Shown here piece after piece: positions 1,749 through 6,565 of a stretch of 7,527 bases of DNA. The DNA is from an uncultured Spirochaetaceae bacterium. Its GTDB lineage: Bacteria > Spirochaetota > Spirochaetia > Treponematales > Treponemataceae. The stretch lies in NCBI GenBank assembly GCA_902766345.1, contig CACXDK010000307.1:1-7527 (forward strand). Direction: 5' to 3'. Within the stretch, counting starts at the first letter, position 1, and every line of letters begins with the position of its first letter. Under the pieces are notes generated by a model. The model saw only the letters and a list, made by a program, of their open reading frames with translations, ran no database searches and was not told where the DNA came from. The position numbers and the translations under genes are program-made.

Positions 1749-2174
1749 ATGCTTATAAAAGTCAGTGACATAAAAGTAAAAAAACGAATACGAAAAGACA
1801 TGGGAGATTTGCGAGCTCTGAAAGAGAGTATGCACACCTATGGTCTTATGAATCCCATTACTGTTAATGCAAACCATGAACTGATTGCAGGAGGCAGAAG
1901 GCTTGCTGCAGCAAAAGAATTGGGATGGGAAACAATAAACGCAACAGTACTGACTAACGTAGATGAAATAAAAGAATTGGAAATGGAGTTAGAAGAAAAC
2001 AATCAGCGCAAAGAATTTTCACAAGATGAAATTCTAGATGGTTATGAACGTTTACGAAAACTTCAAAATCCAAGCATCTTTACAAAACTTTGGAACTTTA
2101 TAAAAAAACTCACAAAGAAAATTACAGATTTACTAAAAAAAATTTTTACAAAAAAAAGGAAAGACCAAAAATAA
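1749..2174 (+). CDS. Stand-alone ParB N-terminal (ParB/Srx fold) domain protein with cationic amphipathic tail
   Basis: This 141-residue protein starts at ATG 1749 behind a GGAG (1741-1744). Residues 1 to about 100 match the ParB N-terminal nucleotide-binding fold: LIAGGRRLAAAKELGW (about 45-60) corresponds to the GERRxxA box, and ELEENNQRKEFSQDEI (about 81-96) to the ENxQRxxLxPxE box. In ParB proteins these boxes bind CTP. The helix-turn-helix and C-terminal dimerisation domains of chromosomal ParB are absent, so it is not an ordinary partition protein. Instead, residues about 108-141 form a Lys-rich stretch with hydrophobics at helical spacing (LWNFIKKLTKKITDLLKKIF), which suggests an amphipathic helix for membrane or nucleic-acid contact. 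It lies 19 bases after the PBP gene and probably shares its transcript. The domain call is well supported; the cellular role is unknown. Confidence 0.82.
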   Translation: MLIKVSDIKVKKRIRKDMGDLRALKESMHTYGLMNPITVNANHELIAGGRRLAAAKELGWETINATVLTNVDEIKELEMELEENNQRKEFSQDEILDGYERLRKLQNPSIFTKLWNFIKKLTKKITDLLKKIFTKKRKDQK

Positions 2175-2209: not shown

Positions 2210-3454
2210 TTATTTTAGAACAACACGTGCAAACTTCTTTTTACCGGCCTTAACAACAAATTCCCCATCAGAATCAGCATCAGAAATGGAAATAACAGCC
2301 TTAACATCTGTTATCTGCTTTCCATTTACTGTAGCTCCGCCCTGCTGTACAAGACGGCGTGCATCAGACTTTGTTGCACACAGCTTTGTATTAAAATACA
2401 GGTCGCATACATTAACGCCGGCTTCAAAATCAGCTTTAGTAAGCTCAACAGTAGGCATTGAAGTCTTGTCACCTTCACCACTGAAAGCAGCTTTTGCACC
2501 TGCAAGGGCACGGTCAGCTTCTTCCTTACCATGAATTACAGCTGTTACTTCATAAGCAAGACGCTCTTTTGCAGCATTAATGTCACCAGCACAAATAGTT
2601 TCAATTTCTGGAATTTCAAGGAACGTAAACAGAAGCATAAACTTCTTAACGTCTGCATCAGGAACATTGCGCCAGTACTGGAAGAAATCATAAACAGGGG
2701 TAAGCTCAGGATCAAGGAAAATTGCACCTTTTTCTGACTTACCCATTTTCTTTCCGTCTGCTCTCATAATAAGAGGGAATGTAAGACCATAAACTTCATG
2801 CTGTTTGTTAAGTTCTGTTGTTCCACCAAGCTTTCTGCGGATCAAATCAACACCAGCAGTAATATTACCCCACTGATCAGCACCACCAATCTGCAGCATC
2901 ATATCATATTTCTGATGCAGCATGTAAAAGTCATAAGCCTGCAACAGCTGATAGTTAAATTCAATGAAAGAAAGACCACGTTCAAGGCGCAGACGATACT
3001 CTTCAAACGTAAGCATTTTATTTACGCTAAAACAAGAACCAATGTCACGCAAGAAATCAATATAATTCAAGTGTTCAAGCCAGTCTTTGTTATTTGCTGC
3101 AAGAGCATGAGTTCCATCAAAACCAAGGAACTTATCCAACTGAGCCTTAATACGCTCAACGTTAGAATCAATCTGCTCATAGTCAAGCATCTTTCTCATT
3201 TCCGTCTTGCCGCTAGGGTCTCCAATGCGACCAGTGCCACCACCAATCAGAGCGACACCGCGATGCCCGAATTTTATAAGATGACGGAATGCAAAAAACG
3301 GAACCATGTGACCAATGTGAAGGCTTGGACCTGTAGGATCACAGCCTACATAAAAAGTAATAGGACCTGCATCCATGCGAGCAGAAAGAGCTTCTACATC
3401 TGTACACTGTGCAAAAAAACCACGGGCCTTTAAGGTCTCAATAGCTTCATTCAT
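2210..3454 (-). CDS. tyrS: Tyrosyl-tRNA synthetase
   Basis: This cytoplasmic enzyme charges tRNA-Tyr with tyrosine using ATP. With the start at 3454 it has 414 residues, normal for bacterial TyrRS. Visible motifs are Tyr35 in FYVGCDPTG (tyrosine pocket), the HIGH signature H46-IGH49, YQLLQAYD (168-175) with the substrate-recognising Tyr, Gln and Asp, DQWGN (193-197), and KMGKS (236-240) as the KMSKS loop. A C-terminal S4 RNA-binding domain follows (about 350-412, including SDARRLVQQGGATVNGK). Start choice: GGAGG at 3467-3463 is 8 bases from ATG 3454 but only 2 from ATG 3460, and the in-frame TTG at 3469 overlaps the GGAGG itself, so ATG 3454 is preferred. The gene is preceded by a Tyr-rich leader ORF and an attenuator-type terminator, and it ends at a terminator shared with the convergent gene. 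Confidence 0.95.
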   Translation of the reverse strand: MNEAIETLKARGFFAQCTDVEALSARMDAGPITFYVGCDPTGPSLHIGHMVPFFAFRHLIKFGHRGVALIGGGTGRIGDPSGKTEMRKMLDYEQIDSNVERIKAQLDKFLGFDGTHALAANNKDWLEHLNYIDFLRDIGSCFSVNKMLTFEEYRLRLERGLSFIEFNYQLLQAYDFYMLHQKYDMMLQIGGADQWGNITAGVDLIRRKLGGTTELNKQHEVYGLTFPLIMRADGKKMGKSEKGAIFLDPELTPVYDFFQYWRNVPDADVKKFMLLFTFLEIPEIETICAGDINAAKERLAYEVTAVIHGKEEADRALAGAKAAFSGEGDKTSMPTVELTKADFEAGVNVCDLYFNTKLCATKSDARRLVQQGGATVNGKQITDVKAVISISDADSDGEFVVKAGKKKFARVVLK

Positions 3455-3467
3455 TTTCATTTCCTCC

Positions 3468-3497
3468 AAAAAAAAGAACCTTCCTTACGGAAGGTTC
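3468..3497 (-). terminator. Intrinsic terminator (attenuator) in the tyrS leader
   Basis: On the minus strand GAACCTTCC (3497-3489), loop GTAA, and GGAAGGTTC (3484-3476) form a perfect 9-bp stem followed at once by eight T (3475-3468). The tyrS Shine-Dalgarno GGAGG begins at the next base. A terminator placed between the promoter and its own gene, with no gap before the ribosome binding site, means tyrS can be expressed from the upstream promoter only by read-through. This is the mark of an attenuator. Confidence 0.9.
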
Positions 3498-3550
3498 ACG
3501 GTATCCCTACTTAGTAAACACACAACACACCAAAACTTAGCGTGAACTCC
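3489..3550 (-). promoter_or_regulatory. Predicted antiterminator of the tyrS leader, with competing upstream hairpin
   Basis: GTTCACG (3547-3541, last codons of the leader ORF) is perfectly complementary to CGTGAAC (3500-3494). With a 2-base bulge, GGA (3550-3548) also pairs with TCC (3491-3489). Together these sequester the whole 5' arm of the terminator, so the two structures exclude each other. The same leader segment can also fold earlier: TCAAAAT (3563-3557) with GTTTTGG (3536-3530), and GCG (3552-3550) with CGC (3542-3540), which would hold GTTCACG back and leave the terminator free. Pairings were read by eye; no energies were calculated. Confidence 0.7.
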
Positions 3551-3641
3551 GCAGACATTTTGAGAACCAATAGCAGCCATAATAAAGGTAGGCCAGCGTG
3601 GTAGAATTGATTTTCAATGCCCAACGGACTGTATTCATCAT
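3537..3641 (-). CDS. Tyrosine-rich leader peptide of tyrS (34 codons)
   Basis: A complete small ORF runs from ATG ATG (3641-3636) to TAA (3539-3537). It opens MMNTVRWALKINSTT, carries the cluster AYLYYGCYWF (codons 17-26), and ends SKCLRSSR. Tyr codons 18, 20, 21 and 24 (TAC 3590-3588, TAT 3584-3582, 3581-3579, 3572-3570) give four Tyr in seven positions, next to Trp and Phe. Such a peptide between promoter and terminator of an aminoacyl-tRNA synthetase gene resembles the Phe-rich leader of the enterobacterial pheST operon. The inferred role is as a sensor: ribosomes stall at Tyr codons when charged tRNA-Tyr is scarce, freeing the antiterminator. There is no GGAG before the start, and the ATG falls about where the promoter would place +1, so the message may be leaderless. 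The peptide itself probably has no function. Confidence 0.8.
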   Translation of the reverse strand: MMNTVRWALKINSTTLAYLYYGCYWFSKCLRSSR

Positions 3642-3647
3642 GTAATT

Positions 3648-3676
3648 ACTTTACCATGAGTAAAAAACTTAGTCAA
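3648..3676 (-). promoter_or_regulatory. Sigma70-type promoter of the tyrS leader transcript
   Basis: On the minus strand there is TTGACT (3676-3671, 5 of 6 to consensus), a spacer of exactly 17 bases, and TAAAGT (3653-3648, 4 of 6). Six bases then separate it from the leader ATG at 3641, so the expected +1 is at or within a base or two of that ATG. A weaker alternative -10, TAATAT (about 3684-3679), lies upstream without a good -35. Confidence 0.7.
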
Positions 3677-3704
3677 GCATATTACCAGTTCTTATTACTA
3701 GCTC

Positions 3705-3723
3705 TAATTTTAAATTAAAATTA
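3705..3723. repeat. AT-only palindrome between divergent promoters
   Basis: TAATTTTAA (3705-3713), one central A, and TTAAAATTA (3715-3723) form a perfect 9-bp inverted repeat. It lies between the -35 of the tyrS leader promoter (3671-3676) and the likely -35 of the glycan promoter (about 3736). It could be an operator or UP-like element, but an all-A/T palindrome in A/T-rich DNA may be chance. Confidence 0.35.
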
Positions 3724-3735
3724 ATAATAAATATC

Positions 3736-3764
3736 TATGCAGTTAGGGAATTATGGTATATAAT
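3736..3764 (+). promoter_or_regulatory. Probable sigma70 promoter of the surface-glycan cluster
   Basis: A perfect -10 TATAAT (3759-3764) has a weak -35 TATGCA (3736-3741, 3 of 6) at 17-base spacing. Transcription would start near 3771, leaving a 5' UTR of about 110 bases before the GTG at 3881. No gene or stable hairpin is evident in that UTR; it holds three copies of a 9-base repeat. Confidence 0.55.
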
Positions 3765-3778
3765 GAATATTAAGAGGA

Positions 3779-3844
3779 CAAAAAGTAAAAATATTAATAA
3801 ATGTTACAAAGCAAAAAGTATAACTATAATTAATACAAAAAGTA
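3779..3844 (+). repeat. Three direct copies of CAAAAAGTA in the glycan-cluster 5' UTR
   Basis: Exact copies lie at 3779-3787, 3812-3820 and 3836-3844. Spacings between starts are 33 and 24 bases, so there is no constant helical phasing. All lie between the predicted start of transcription and the first ribosome binding site. They could be sites for an RNA- or DNA-binding regulator, or simply A-rich recurrence. Confidence 0.45.
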
Positions 3845-3880
3845 CGAAAAAATTATTTGAATACTTGGAGTAAAGGGCTT

Positions 3881-4555
3881 GTGAACATAAAGAACAATAT
3901 TTTTAACTTAAAACCTAAAATAAAAAAAATATACAGACTTGTAGTTCCACAAAAAATTAGGAACGTAATATGGCTTTTTCGAAAACACTGTAAACGTTTA
4001 ATAAGAGAAGCTACTGAGTTTAAAGGAATAAGGAAGAATTATTATTTCAATACCAGCATTTCGCTTTCTGAAGTTCCAATTGATAAGAGGCGCTGTACAA
4101 TATTTGCTTCGTACAGCTATGACGGAACTATTCCTGATTATACAGTATATTTTTTAAAAGAATTAAAGAAAATATCACAGTTCATAGTTTTTGTTGCAGA
4201 CAATGACTTAAAGAATGAATCTGAACTAAATAAAATTGACACCCTCGTAAATGTTGCTTTTTTTGGACGCCATCGTGGTTATGATTTTAATTCTCAAAAA
4301 AAAGGATATAATTATCTTCTCGAAAAAGATTTTGCAAAGGATTTTCATGATTTTTTATTTGTAAATGATTCTTGCTACGGTCCTATGTACGACTTGTCTT
4401 CGGTATATGAAAAAATGAAACCGAAAAACGTAGATTTTTGGGGACTTTGCGATTCAACGGATGATGTATATCATTTGCAATCATTTTTTATAAACTGCAA
4501 TAGTAAAGTATTCTTTAGTAAAGAACTAAATTCATTCTTTTCATCTTTACCGTAA
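3881..4555 (+). CDS. RgpF-like rhamnan-synthesis protein, N-terminal part ending at an in-frame stop
   Basis: This is the first part of an RgpF-family (rhamnan synthesis F) protein, involved in building rhamnose-containing cell-surface polysaccharides. Visible family features, numbered from GTG 3881, are IFASYSYDGTIPDYTVYFLKEL (74-95, start of the glycosyltransferase-like fold), RHRGYDFNSQKKGYNYL (130-146), FVNDSCYGPMYD (160-171), and DFWGLCDS...YHLQSFF (185-203). The N-terminal 50 residues are basic, without a signal peptide. Start choice: GTG 3881 has GGAG at 3867-3870, in the same GGAGTAAAG context that precedes the downstream glycosyltransferase; an in-frame TTG at 3857 lies ahead of that site and is less likely. 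The family continues well past the TAA at 4553-4555, and the missing part follows in the same frame from 4559. This looks like one gene broken by a nonsense codon. Confidence 0.8.
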   Translation: MNIKNNIFNLKPKIKKIYRLVVPQKIRNVIWLFRKHCKRLIREATEFKGIRKNYYFNTSISLSEVPIDKRRCTIFASYSYDGTIPDYTVYFLKELKKISQFIVFVADNDLKNESELNKIDTLVNVAFFGRHRGYDFNSQKKGYNYLLEKDFAKDFHDFLFVNDSCYGPMYDLSSVYEKMKPKNVDFWGLCDSTDDVYHLQSFFINCNSKVFFSKELNSFFSSLP

Positions 4556-4558
4556 AAA

Positions 4559-6565
4559 ATGGATTTTCAAACAGCAGTTGATAAAGGTGAAAAGCCGTTT
4601 ACAAAAATGCTGTCAAAATCATTTACGAGTGGATGTTTTTTACCAAGATTTGCAACAGGCAACACAAAAAGCTATATAGGAGGAAACAGGAATCCTACGG
4701 TCTGGCCAGTTTCATTATTGAAAGCAGGCTTTCCTCTTATAAAGGTAAAAGCTTTGATTGGAGTGTATGAAAAGCAATTAAATGAGTCTTTTAGTGATAC
4801 TATGCTTTATATTTATAAGAATAATAAGCCATTGTATGAAATAATAATTAATGATTTAAAAAGAAGATTTGGGAATGTTCCTAAGGAGTACTATTTCTCT
4901 AAAAATGGCGAAGACTTGACATTTGTATTAAACGAAAATATAAGCGTCGTCAGTTTTGATATTTTTGATACACTTCTCATCAGGCCGTTTACAAATCCTA
5001 CGGATTTATTTTTGTTGATTGAAAAAGATCAAAATTTAGACGGCTTTTATATTGAAAGGATAAATGCAGAAAAAAGAGCAAGAGAAATTTCTAAATTTCA
5101 AGAAATAACAATCGATGAGATATATGAAAATATAAACCCAAAATTTTCACATGTAAAAGAAATTGAACTGGACTATGAAAAACGATTACTCCGTAGAAAT
5201 CCTGCAATAGAAAAGATATATGCACAAGTCTGCAATACTAATAAAAAAATCATCGCAATCTCTGACATGTATTTAGGAAAAGATTTTCTTCGTGAAGTCT
5301 TAATAAAAAATAGATTTGAAAATATCTCTGAAATTTTTGTAAGTTCAGATTGCAGAAAAACAAAAAGCTCTAGGGATATATACAAATTTGCCATATCAAA
5401 TACCCCCCCCCAATTTCACACACAACAATTACTTCATATCGGAGACAATGAAGAGTCTGACGAAAGAATACCTTTATCAATGGGCATAAACGCATTTCAA
5501 ATTGATAAAGTTATAGACAGATTCATTATCCCTAGCAATGCAAAATGGGTAAACTGGTATTATGCCAATAAGTCTCTTGGAAAATCAATACATTTTTCAT
5601 TAATTGCAAAACATTTATTTTATGAAAAAGAGTTTAATATCCCCTACTGGGAAATGATGGGCTACAGGCTTGGACTCGGTATAGTTTCGTATTTGAATTA
5701 TGTCCTGAAGGGATGTCAAAAAAACAACATTGACAGGTTGTTTTTTGTTGCAAGGGATGGATGGATTTTAAAAGAACTGTATGAAAAGTTTTTTATGAAA
5801 CTTTACGGAATACCTTGCTCCTATGTTTATTTAACTCGCATTATAGGCTTAAAAGCAACGCTTGACTTCAACGAAGAGCCTGTTTATCTAAAAAAACTGT
5901 TGAAGGAAGCTTCAAAAGAAATTAAAGGCTTAAATGTACACGATGACTATGAAAGCAATCTAAAAGAATTTAAGATTCATGAGGATTCAATAAAAAGTTG
6001 GTCTGCCCCCAAAAAAACAGAATTTGAAAAACATTTAAAATTGCAAGCAAAAGATTCTAAGAACATAGCCGTTGTAGATACAACAACAGGGAACTTTTCT
6101 TCTTTACGCTTTGCAAAGTCTGTACTTGACAGCCGCATAAAAACAGCTTTTTTTACAGGAACATCTTTTGAAAAGCCTGAATATGCCTATGCAACTTTTT
6201 CTAACAGGCTTTTGAGTATTGAGGATAAATGGTATGTAATGCTTATGGAGGAAATCTTTTCAAGTCCATTTCCATCTGCAATTTCATTGGAAAACGGAAA
6301 TCCTGTTTTTGATCAGGAAGAAGATTCTTCCAGAAGCAATCTTTTCTTACAACTGGCAAAAGGCATTGAAGATTATGTTCGAGACCTTATAGATTTGTTT
6401 GGCACAAACATTAATTCTATTTGTATTACATTTGAAGACTTTTTAGATATGTTAAAATGGTATAAGAGAAATATAAATCCGATAGATTTGGAAGAACTAT
6501 CTCATATTAAACACAAAGATTTGATGAGAGATGAAGAATATGATTTATCATTAAGTGCAAAATAA
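4559..6565 (+). CDS. Remainder of RgpF-like domain fused to a HAD-superfamily domain and a conserved C-terminal domain
   Basis: The 668-residue ORF is in the same frame as the preceding gene, separated by TAA AAA. No GGAG precedes its ATG, so expression would need reinitiation or read-through. Residues 1-105 complete the RgpF domain (NPTVWPVSLLKAGFPLIKVKAL at 45-66). Residues about 128-315 form a HAD domain: motif I SFDIFDTLL with nucleophile Asp134, motif II Ser235 in IAISDMYLG, motif III Lys near 267-269, and motif IV HIGDNEESDE (293-302). The +2 residue after the nucleophile is Phe136 rather than Asp, as in haloacid-dehalogenase-like members, so phosphatase activity is uncertain. The C-terminal part has FFVARDGWILKELYEKF (about 395-411) and VVDTTTGNFSS (about 504-514), seen in large glycan-cluster proteins of this type. 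A C9 run lies at codons 282-285. Substrate unknown; a role in surface-polysaccharide assembly is inferred from the fusion and neighbours. Confidence 0.8.
   Translation: MDFQTAVDKGEKPFTKMLSKSFTSGCFLPRFATGNTKSYIGGNRNPTVWPVSLLKAGFPLIKVKALIGVYEKQLNESFSDTMLYIYKNNKPLYEIIINDLKRRFGNVPKEYYFSKNGEDLTFVLNENISVVSFDIFDTLLIRPFTNPTDLFLLIEKDQNLDGFYIERINAEKRAREISKFQEITIDEIYENINPKFSHVKEIELDYEKRLLRRNPAIEKIYAQVCNTNKKIIAISDMYLGKDFLREVLIKNRFENISEIFVSSDCRKTKSSRDIYKFAISNTPPQFHTQQLLHIGDNEESDERIPLSMGINAFQIDKVIDRFIIPSNAKWVNWYYANKSLGKSIHFSLIAKHLFYEKEFNIPYWEMMGYRLGLGIVSYLNYVLKGCQKNNIDRLFFVARDGWILKELYEKFFMKLYGIPCSYVYLTRIIGLKATLDFNEEPVYLKKLLKEASKEIKGLNVHDDYESNLKEFKIHEDSIKSWSAPKKTEFEKHLKLQAKDSKNIAVVDTTTGNFSSLRFAKSVLDSRIKTAFFTGTSFEKPEYAYATFSNRLLSIEDKWYVMLMEEIFSSPFPSAISLENGNPVFDQEEDSSRSNLFLQLAKGIEDYVRDLIDLFGTNINSICITFEDFLDMLKWYKRNINPIDLEELSHIKHKDLMRDEEYDLSLSAK
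5403..5411 (+). repeat. C9 homopolymer inside the HAD coding region
   Basis: Nine consecutive C encode Thr-Pro-Pro-Gln (ACC CCC CCC CAA) in an otherwise A/T-rich gene. Loss or gain of one C would shift the frame in the HAD domain before its motif IV. In the version shown the frame is open. Confidence 0.9.

Follow-up and report, generated by a model that had tools for sequence, protein, structure and literature searches.

A Predicted Tyrosine-Leader Attenuator of tyrS in Treponema and Its Counterparts Upstream of aroF

Introduction

In a stretch of 7,527 nucleotides from an uncultured Spirochaetaceae bacterium (GenBank assembly GCA_902766345.1, contig CACXDK010000307.1; the whole stretch is called the window in the following), the gene tyrS for tyrosine–tRNA ligase is preceded by a short open reading frame (ORF) rich in tyrosine codons and by an intrinsic terminator. 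This raises the question whether ribosomes translating the short ORF could adjust the transcription of tyrS to the supply of tyrosyl-tRNA. A preliminary description of the locus had read it in this way, as a ribosome-mediated attenuator with a Tyr-rich leader peptide; recurring parts, covariation and geometry in related genomes support this reading and extend it to aroF, the gene for 3-deoxy-D-arabino-heptulosonate 7-phosphate (DAHP) synthase. A probability of about 0.91 is given to the view that ribosomes on the leader attenuate tyrS transcription according to the supply of tyrosyl-tRNA. The parts, their conservation, covariation and geometry are established by sequence comparison; the leader is presumably translated, the terminator presumably works, and the device would respond to Tyr-tRNA. 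The mechanism itself is classical ribosome-mediated attenuation. The elements of the locus, in the order of transcription, are as follows.

3671..3676, minus strand: −35 hexamer TTGACT; 52 of the 68 leaders, that of the window counted, have a similar hexamer in this position
3648..3653, minus strand: extended −10 hexamer TAAAGT with TG upstream, 6 nt 5' of the leader ATG
3537..3641, minus strand: leader peptide ORF, 34 codons and stop, MMNTVRWALKINSTTLAYLYYGCYWFSKCLRSSR; probably read from a leaderless mRNA; conserved in relatives
3606..3637, minus strand: segment 1, 5' half of the ORF, predicted to pair with segment 2 when the ribosome is absent
3570..3590, minus strand: control codons Tyr 18, 20, 21 and 24, from the ORF translation
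3541..3571, minus strand: segment 2, towards the 3' end of the ORF, with the antiterminator strand at 3553-3541
3501..3523, minus strand: small hairpin nested within the antiterminator, 3' of the leader stop and 5' of the terminator; sequence partly conserved
3486..3500, minus strand: segment 3, the antiterminator partner (3500-3494 and 3491-3486), overlapping the 5' arm and the loop of the terminator
3468..3497, minus strand: intrinsic terminator, a 9-bp hairpin (3497-3476) followed by eight T (3475-3468)
3463..3467, minus strand: Shine-Dalgarno sequence GGAGG of tyrS, directly 3' of the T run
2210..3454, minus strand: tyrS, tyrosine–tRNA ligase (TIGR00234, E 1.4e-123)

The start of tyrS at ATG 3454 is preferred, because the in-frame ATG at 3460 is missing in the related loci L002/L083 and L003/L081 (loci are numbered with the prefix L).

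Results and Discussion

Occurrence of the leader

A profile of 6 leader peptides, applied to eight genomes, yielded three more leaders (L089, L090, L091), each 5' of a DAHP synthase gene. With a second profile of 9 peptides, matches at E ≤ 0.01, weak ones included, were obtained in 67 of 200 genomes of the genus and in 72 of 274 genomes of the family. Among 73 loci examined, 38 leaders lie before tyrS and 29 before aroF, contig ends truncate another five, and one (L163) is spurious; target genes other than these two were not found among the 67 assignable loci. Inspection of eleven weak profile places added one further aroF leader (L209); the other ten were read and were unconvincing as leaders. 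Beyond the family, strong matches (E < 1e-12) in 390 genomes of the order were confined to genomes already known, all others having E > 0.01, and a search of a plasmid collection with the leader region gave no match. NCBIfam models, run on six representatives, recognized one tyrosyl-tRNA synthetase (TyrRS) of each type described below, two DAHP synthases and one translation initiation factor IF-1 above the curated cut-offs.

The comparison with relatives which the preliminary description had proposed thus shows recurrence of the Tyr codons, the leader stop, the terminator and the antiterminator, with compensatory changes in the latter. The 38 leader-bearing tyrS genes comprise 7 of the window type (80–99% identical to that of the window) and 31 of a second type (about 36%); clustering gave groups of 7, 30 and 1, the singleton L150 being incomplete and assigned to the second type by its sequence. 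Judged by their sequences, two unrelated TyrRS types carry the leader.

Leader ORF and terminator

The position of the ORF (3641-3537, 34 codons) and of its Tyr codons 18, 20, 21 and 24 had been given correctly in the preliminary description. It is a short frame in which codons for the regulated amino acid occur in runs, and in 51 aligned leaders Tyr20 is invariant and Tyr18 is conserved to at least 90%. Ratios of nonsynonymous to synonymous differences (pN/pS) for codons 7–20 were 0.29 in tyrS leaders, 0.58 in aroF leaders and 0.46 in the pooled set (22, 23 and 45 distinct sequences, respectively). Translation of the leader would be expected from the conserved reading frame and residues.

An apical hairpin (3591-3594 with 3575-3578 in the window) encloses the Tyr codons. 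Base 3 of the Ala17 codon covaries with base 1 of codon 22 in 65 distinct leaders; the combinations are T with AGC (31), C with GGC (10), T with GGC (8) and A with GGC (5), and C with A never occurs.

A scan of 3300-3900 for terminator-like sites found two, 3497-3476 and a weaker one at 3544-3526, against 0.2 ± 0.6 expected. The former is the 9-bp hairpin with T8 abutting the GGAGG of tyrS which had been noted before. A terminator, sought as a hairpin adjoining a run of five T, is present in 68 of 68 leaders, window included; a simpler finder detected it in 63 of 67 relatives and missed L117, L147, L149 and L150. Terminators lacking a leader ORF, which had been named beforehand as speaking against attenuation, do occur in 4 of 70 leaderless tyrS regions under strict criteria, and leader plus terminator in none of these 70; looser criteria (6-bp stems anywhere in 330 nt) gave ten leaderless tyrS loci with a terminator-like site. 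Between leader stop and terminator, the element at 3501-3523 has in many relatives the form (U)UGUGUUUACU-n-GGUAAUUAC; the attenuation model does not account for its role.

Competing pairings

In the window the antiterminator is a helix of 13 bp, formed by 3553-3541 with 3500-3494 and 3491-3486, of −17.3 kcal/mol. The shorter pairing previously suggested (3547-3541 with 3500-3494) is contained in it, the helix being 13 bp and not 7 bp long. The early hairpin with a first arm at 3563-3557 could not be reproduced as drawn; in the folds a long hairpin within the ORF, 3637-3606 with 3571-3543, takes its place as the competitor of the antiterminator, and segment 1 is accordingly formed by the 5' half of the ORF itself.

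For 61 distinct leaders the mean antiterminator energy was −14.9 kcal/mol with native partners, −13.2 ± 0.32 kcal/mol with swapped partners (0 of 10,000 swaps as good) and −9.5 ± 0.32 kcal/mol with shuffled segment 2; swaps within the tyrS leaders also gave 0 of 10,000. G-C/A-U exchanges are found in the antiterminator columns (62 of 63 distinct leaders anchored). The antiterminator core is found in each of the three frames (67 of 68 leaders) and in L089 just 3' of the stop codon; it is therefore held as RNA and not as peptide, and the 5' part of the ORF keeps frame and residues. Antiterminator and terminator exclude each other, with compensatory changes.

The pairing of segments 1 and 2 (1:2) had a mean energy of −19.6 kcal/mol in 60 distinct leaders, compared to −17.6 ± 0.32 kcal/mol for swapped partners (0 of 10,000). 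In one alignment (A3) the ORF hairpin had 77.3% paired cells versus 37–54% in slid versions, a comparison biased in its favour since the structure was taken from L113, itself a row of the alignment; none of 500 shuffles reached its covariation score. The 1:2 hairpin is exclusive with the pairing of segments 2 and 3 (2:3), its signal being weak in aroF leaders under the synonymous-codon null model considered below. RNAalifold on MAFFT alignments gave almost no signal, because the terminator was misaligned, and pairwise tests were used instead.

Ribosome positions and proposed mechanism

A static model in which the ribosome was assumed to cover 18 nt upstream and 15 nt downstream was applied to 66 distinct leaders. 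When no pairing across the ribosome was permitted, a stall at Tyr20 left the antiterminator in 65 of 66 leaders (L112 fails) and a ribosome at the stop codon in 0 of 66; 1:2 formed in 62 of 66 when the ribosome was absent. For the window itself, the 13-bp antiterminator resulted from stalls at codons 21 and 24 and was absent with a ribosome at the stop. Segment 2 is thus free at a control-codon stall and covered at the stop, given the assumed footprint.

The following sequence of events is proposed. Transcription would start at or adjoining the leader ATG. Without a ribosome, the 5' half of the ORF would pair with its 3' part, segment 2 would be occupied, and the terminator (3:4) would form. 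A ribosome moving unhindered would open 1:2 and cover segment 2 at the stop codon, and the terminator would form again. When Tyr-tRNA is low, the ribosome should stall at the Tyr codons in the 1:2 loop, with 1:2 opened and segment 2 left free; 2:3 could then form, the terminator would be prevented, and tyrS would be transcribed. The same device, richer in Phe and Trp codons, would act before aroF in the same genus.

Promoter and start of the transcript

The promoter TTGACT-17 nt-TAAAGT, with TG preceding the −10 hexamer, is present as reported before. Taken alone it is at chance level, since 2 promoter-like sites were found in 3300-3900 versus 2.3 expected; its significance is supplied by the relatives, as a promoter at most 12 nt from the ATG recurs in 51 of 67 related leaders versus 6.3 ± 1.9 in shuffles. 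In a simple scan of 3300-3900 no tyrS promoter was detected 3' of the terminator, where its presence had been named as an argument against attenuation. The −10 hexamer ends 6–10 nt 5' of the ATG in 52 of 68 leaders, window included. The usual distance from −10 to the start of transcription is 6–8 nt, and therefore the transcript would begin at or adjoining the leader ATG. The leader ORF is thus probably leaderless; start of transcription and start of translation would be almost one event.

Leaders upstream of aroF

The codon content of the leaders follows their target genes. In the ten codons from Tyr18 onward, the mean numbers per leader are 3.17 Tyr, 1.06 Phe and 0.14 Trp for 35 distinct tyrS leaders and 3.40 Tyr, 2.96 Phe and 0.56 Trp for 25 distinct aroF leaders; the differences have p values of 5e-9 for Phe, 0.007 for Trp and 0.60 for Tyr, values which are too small because the sequences are related. 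These codons fit the targets, since TyrRS needs only tyrosine and DAHP synthase feeds all three aromatic amino acids. About one Phe per leader is still kept before tyrS.

The aroF protein was found in 155 of 196 genomes of the genus. From the aroF genes without a profile leader, 40 upstream regions were taken in list order with some skipped, a non-random sample, and inspected for a short ORF having 6 or more aromatics within 12 residues, followed by a terminator 10–65 nt 3' of its stop. Such a leader plus terminator was present in 28 of the 40, for example MKHTYYAYYYYWYSHNACRVLAK and MKANLNFTFQTSQKYGTKLAYFYYYWYYFFSSGFFGMCR; the same criteria gave 0 of 70 for tyrS upstream regions without a profile leader and 0 of 400 for mononucleotide-shuffled sequences. 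The terminator arms of these diverged leaders vary (CTTCCA, ACTCTGC and others) and segment 2 changes in step: the native antiterminators averaged −14.3 kcal/mol and the swapped ones −10.8 ± 0.60 kcal/mol (0 of 10,000, near-copies kept in). T. ruminis (L272, the genome of L038) and T. saccharophilum (L271, the genome of L018) are among them. Ten further regions had no terminator by these criteria (L260 has only 146 nt upstream), and two had a terminator and no clear leader (L241, ended by the contig end, and L242).

In Treponema, DAHP synthase genes thus commonly have an aromatic-rich leader ORF in front of them, together with a terminator and an antiterminator (29 loci including L089–L091 and L102–L112, L209, and 28 of L241–L280). 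The frame after aroF begins like prephenate dehydrogenase in 8 of 9 loci examined; in L138 a piece of 70 residues of this gene had a weak match to that enzyme (E 1.6e-5, NCBIfam), and L090 and L091 had no such frame among those listed.

In a leader tree made from 60 rows and 78 columns the leader of the window stands beside aroF leaders (91/91) and not beside other tyrS leaders; the tree is too weak to date transfers. Chances are about even that one ancestral aromatic-sensing cassette serves the whole genus, being old and widespread at aroF, and that it was copied to tyrS more than once, before two unrelated TyrRS types, and each time retuned from Phe and Trp to Tyr codons, with promoter and the pairings 1:2, 2:3 and 3:4 kept. 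If so, this would be a movable, re-addressable leader-peptide sensor, and the loci would provide a natural experiment in attenuator copying and retuning. When the RNA scaffold was sought by a strict pattern that ignored the peptide (GTGTTTACT...GTAATTAC), 5 of 200 genomes matched, three of them at known aroF leaders (genomes G047, G064, G173); the pattern was too strict to be informative. The two matches away from known leaders were in G150 and G191 (L169, L171).

Alternative explanations

Several results weigh against attenuation by Tyr-tRNA supply. The best 80 of 304 places encoding a tyrS relative were taken, and leaders stand 5' of tyrS in L001, L002, L003, L010 and L014; by profile scoring, 5 of 75 window-type loci with enough upstream sequence carry one (L039, L040, L048, L061 and L074 had too little); the leader is therefore patchy and dispensable in most relatives. 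Similarly, 12 of the 40 sampled aroF genes were without such a leader. Within the aroF leaders the swap tests were weaker (12 of 10,000 for the antiterminator, 16 of 10,000 for 1:2), and all shuffle and swap tests retain the relatedness of the sequences. Compared to a synonymous-codon null model, the ORF hairpin had only a slight advantage in tyrS leaders (mean z −1.26; 8 of 38 below −2, 6 above 0) and an unconvincing one in aroF leaders (mean z −0.43; 1 of 27 below −2, 9 above 0). When RNA 5' of the ribosome was allowed to pair across it, the antiterminator formed in 52 of 66 leaders at the Tyr20 stall and in 4 of 66 at the stop, and stalls at codons 18 and 20 of the window gave no clean antiterminator, those at codons 21 and 24 still giving it; with no ribosome, 45 of 66 leaders also kept at least five 2:3 pairs. 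Finally, 16 leaders, all before second-type tyrS genes, have no promoter abutting the ATG. The frame 5' of the leader was read in nine of these 16 (L115, L118, L122, L123, L130, L142, L143, L145, L149); in all nine it is infA-like and lies 11–45 nt away, and one was confirmed as IF-1 by NCBIfam. An AGGA motif is placed at Shine-Dalgarno distance from the leader ATG in 7 of the 16.

Beyond hungry Tyr codons, a conserved nascent peptide (RWAQKIN-SxLAYxY) might itself arrest the ribosome, perhaps by sensing free tyrosine in the exit tunnel. Residues 7–20 are indeed conserved beyond the control codons, as the low pN/pS in tyrS leaders indicates, and Ser14, Leu16 and Ala17, conserved to at least 90%, lie outside the main 1:2 stem. 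However, 65 of 67 leaders use TTG or CTG for Leu16, and Ala17 and codon 22 agree with the apical RNA hairpin, so that RNA accounts for part of this conservation; moreover, the N-terminal residues are mostly absent from the 28 diverged aroF leaders, which keep the dense aromatic codons, and codons follow the target amino acid. Such an arrest peptide is considered unlikely. A partial terminator with a merely decorative short ORF, that is, constitutive attenuation with no amino-acid sensing, would agree with the fact that most window-type tyrS genes manage without a leader, but it would leave unexplained the match of codon content to each target, the covariation of the antiterminator, the exposure of segment 2 at the Tyr stall and its coverage at the stop, and the lack of any leader with terminator in the 70 tyrS upstream regions without a profile leader; it appears very improbable.

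Control could also be translational, the terminator-like hairpin hiding or exposing the Shine-Dalgarno sequence, as the contact of the T run with GGAGG in the window might suggest. Yet in relatives the stem ends about 20 to 180 nt before the gene start (20 in L158, 181 in L118; loci where an ATG-only rule missed the true start are omitted) and a T run follows, which therefore fits termination and not masking in general; a shade less probability still is assigned to this possibility. A T-box (the usual control of tyrS in Firmicutes), a riboswitch or a protein-dependent attenuator acting on the same terminator would have to find room where a conserved ORF with its stop occupies the available space. 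No Rfam model, that of the T-box included, matched at its gathering score, and the E-value mode gave only sub-threshold hits, to Phe_leader (RF01859; 22.1 bits versus a cut-off of 55, E 0.15) and to RAGATH-32 (E 0.94); the chance of such a device is practically negligible. Attenuation by a translated Tyr-rich leader is thus the preferred reading.

Other genes of the window

The ORF at 1749-2174 (plus strand) encodes a short protein with a ParB N-terminal domain (PF02195) only and a lysine-rich tail. The ORF at 3857-4555 (plus strand) matches just the first quarter of RgpF (PF05045, 1–131 of 503) and ends immediately before the next one, 4559-6565 (plus strand), for which no Pfam match was found; together they are possibly an interrupted polysaccharide gene.

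Comparison with Known Systems

The trp leader of Escherichia coli has the exclusive pairings 1:2, 2:3 and 3:4 and a switch by a stalled ribosome. In contrast to it, the control codons in Treponema are placed in the 1:2 loop, outside segment 1, and the 5' end of the RNA would coincide with the start of the ORF or adjoin it. The E. coli leader is also named in PMC11802643, and Chlamydia trp (PMC3937554) was among the literature compared.

Leader attenuators of aminoacyl-tRNA synthetase genes have been described for pheST of gamma-proteobacteria and for trpS and leuS of Streptomyces (PMC1262725, in part), and a leader, uORFC-8-2, for cysS of Rhodobacterales (PMC8632094, in part). As far as these partial texts go, all are rich in the amino acid of the synthetase itself and have a terminator, and an antiterminator where one is described; they differ from the present case in the amino acids, and they contain no tyrS and no leader shared with a biosynthetic gene.

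On the side of biosynthesis, the upstream ORF uORFC-13-1, predicted at aroF of Acholeplasma, has Phe codons, a possible −35/−10 and a terminator; according to the same source (PMC8632094) it differs in having both a ribosome binding site and a stretch of U that encodes Phe, in its restriction to Acholeplasma and environmental sequences, and in lacking a tyrS partner. In Corynebacterium glutamicum a Phe-Tyr-Phe leader peptide, aroR, precedes the DAHP synthase operon with aroF, and stalling of the ribosome raises transcription; leaderless small mRNAs are also reported from this species (PMC11802643, PMC4046766, both in part). Likeness to the Treponema leaders consists in an aromatic leader peptide before DAHP synthase at which a stall raises, or would raise, transcription; aroR-aroF responds to Phe and not to Tyr, and no tyrS partner is described in the accessible parts, the comparison being one of descriptions and not of sequences. 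By the title of a paper cited in PMC4046766, an ilvBNC leader peptide is reportedly also made without a ribosome binding site.

A leader-peptide attenuator for tyrS, or any in Treponema, was not encountered among the matches listed in the open-access literature, a weak negative since subscription papers were mostly outside. As far as this literature was searched, tyrS as a target, the phylum of spirochaetes, and a codon-matched leader common to tyrS and aroF would be new. Leader-peptide attenuation would thereby be placed in the spirochaetes and tyrS be given such an attenuator, and one homologous leader, with control codons differing by target, would tie an aminoacyl-tRNA synthetase to the enzyme that opens aromatic biosynthesis.
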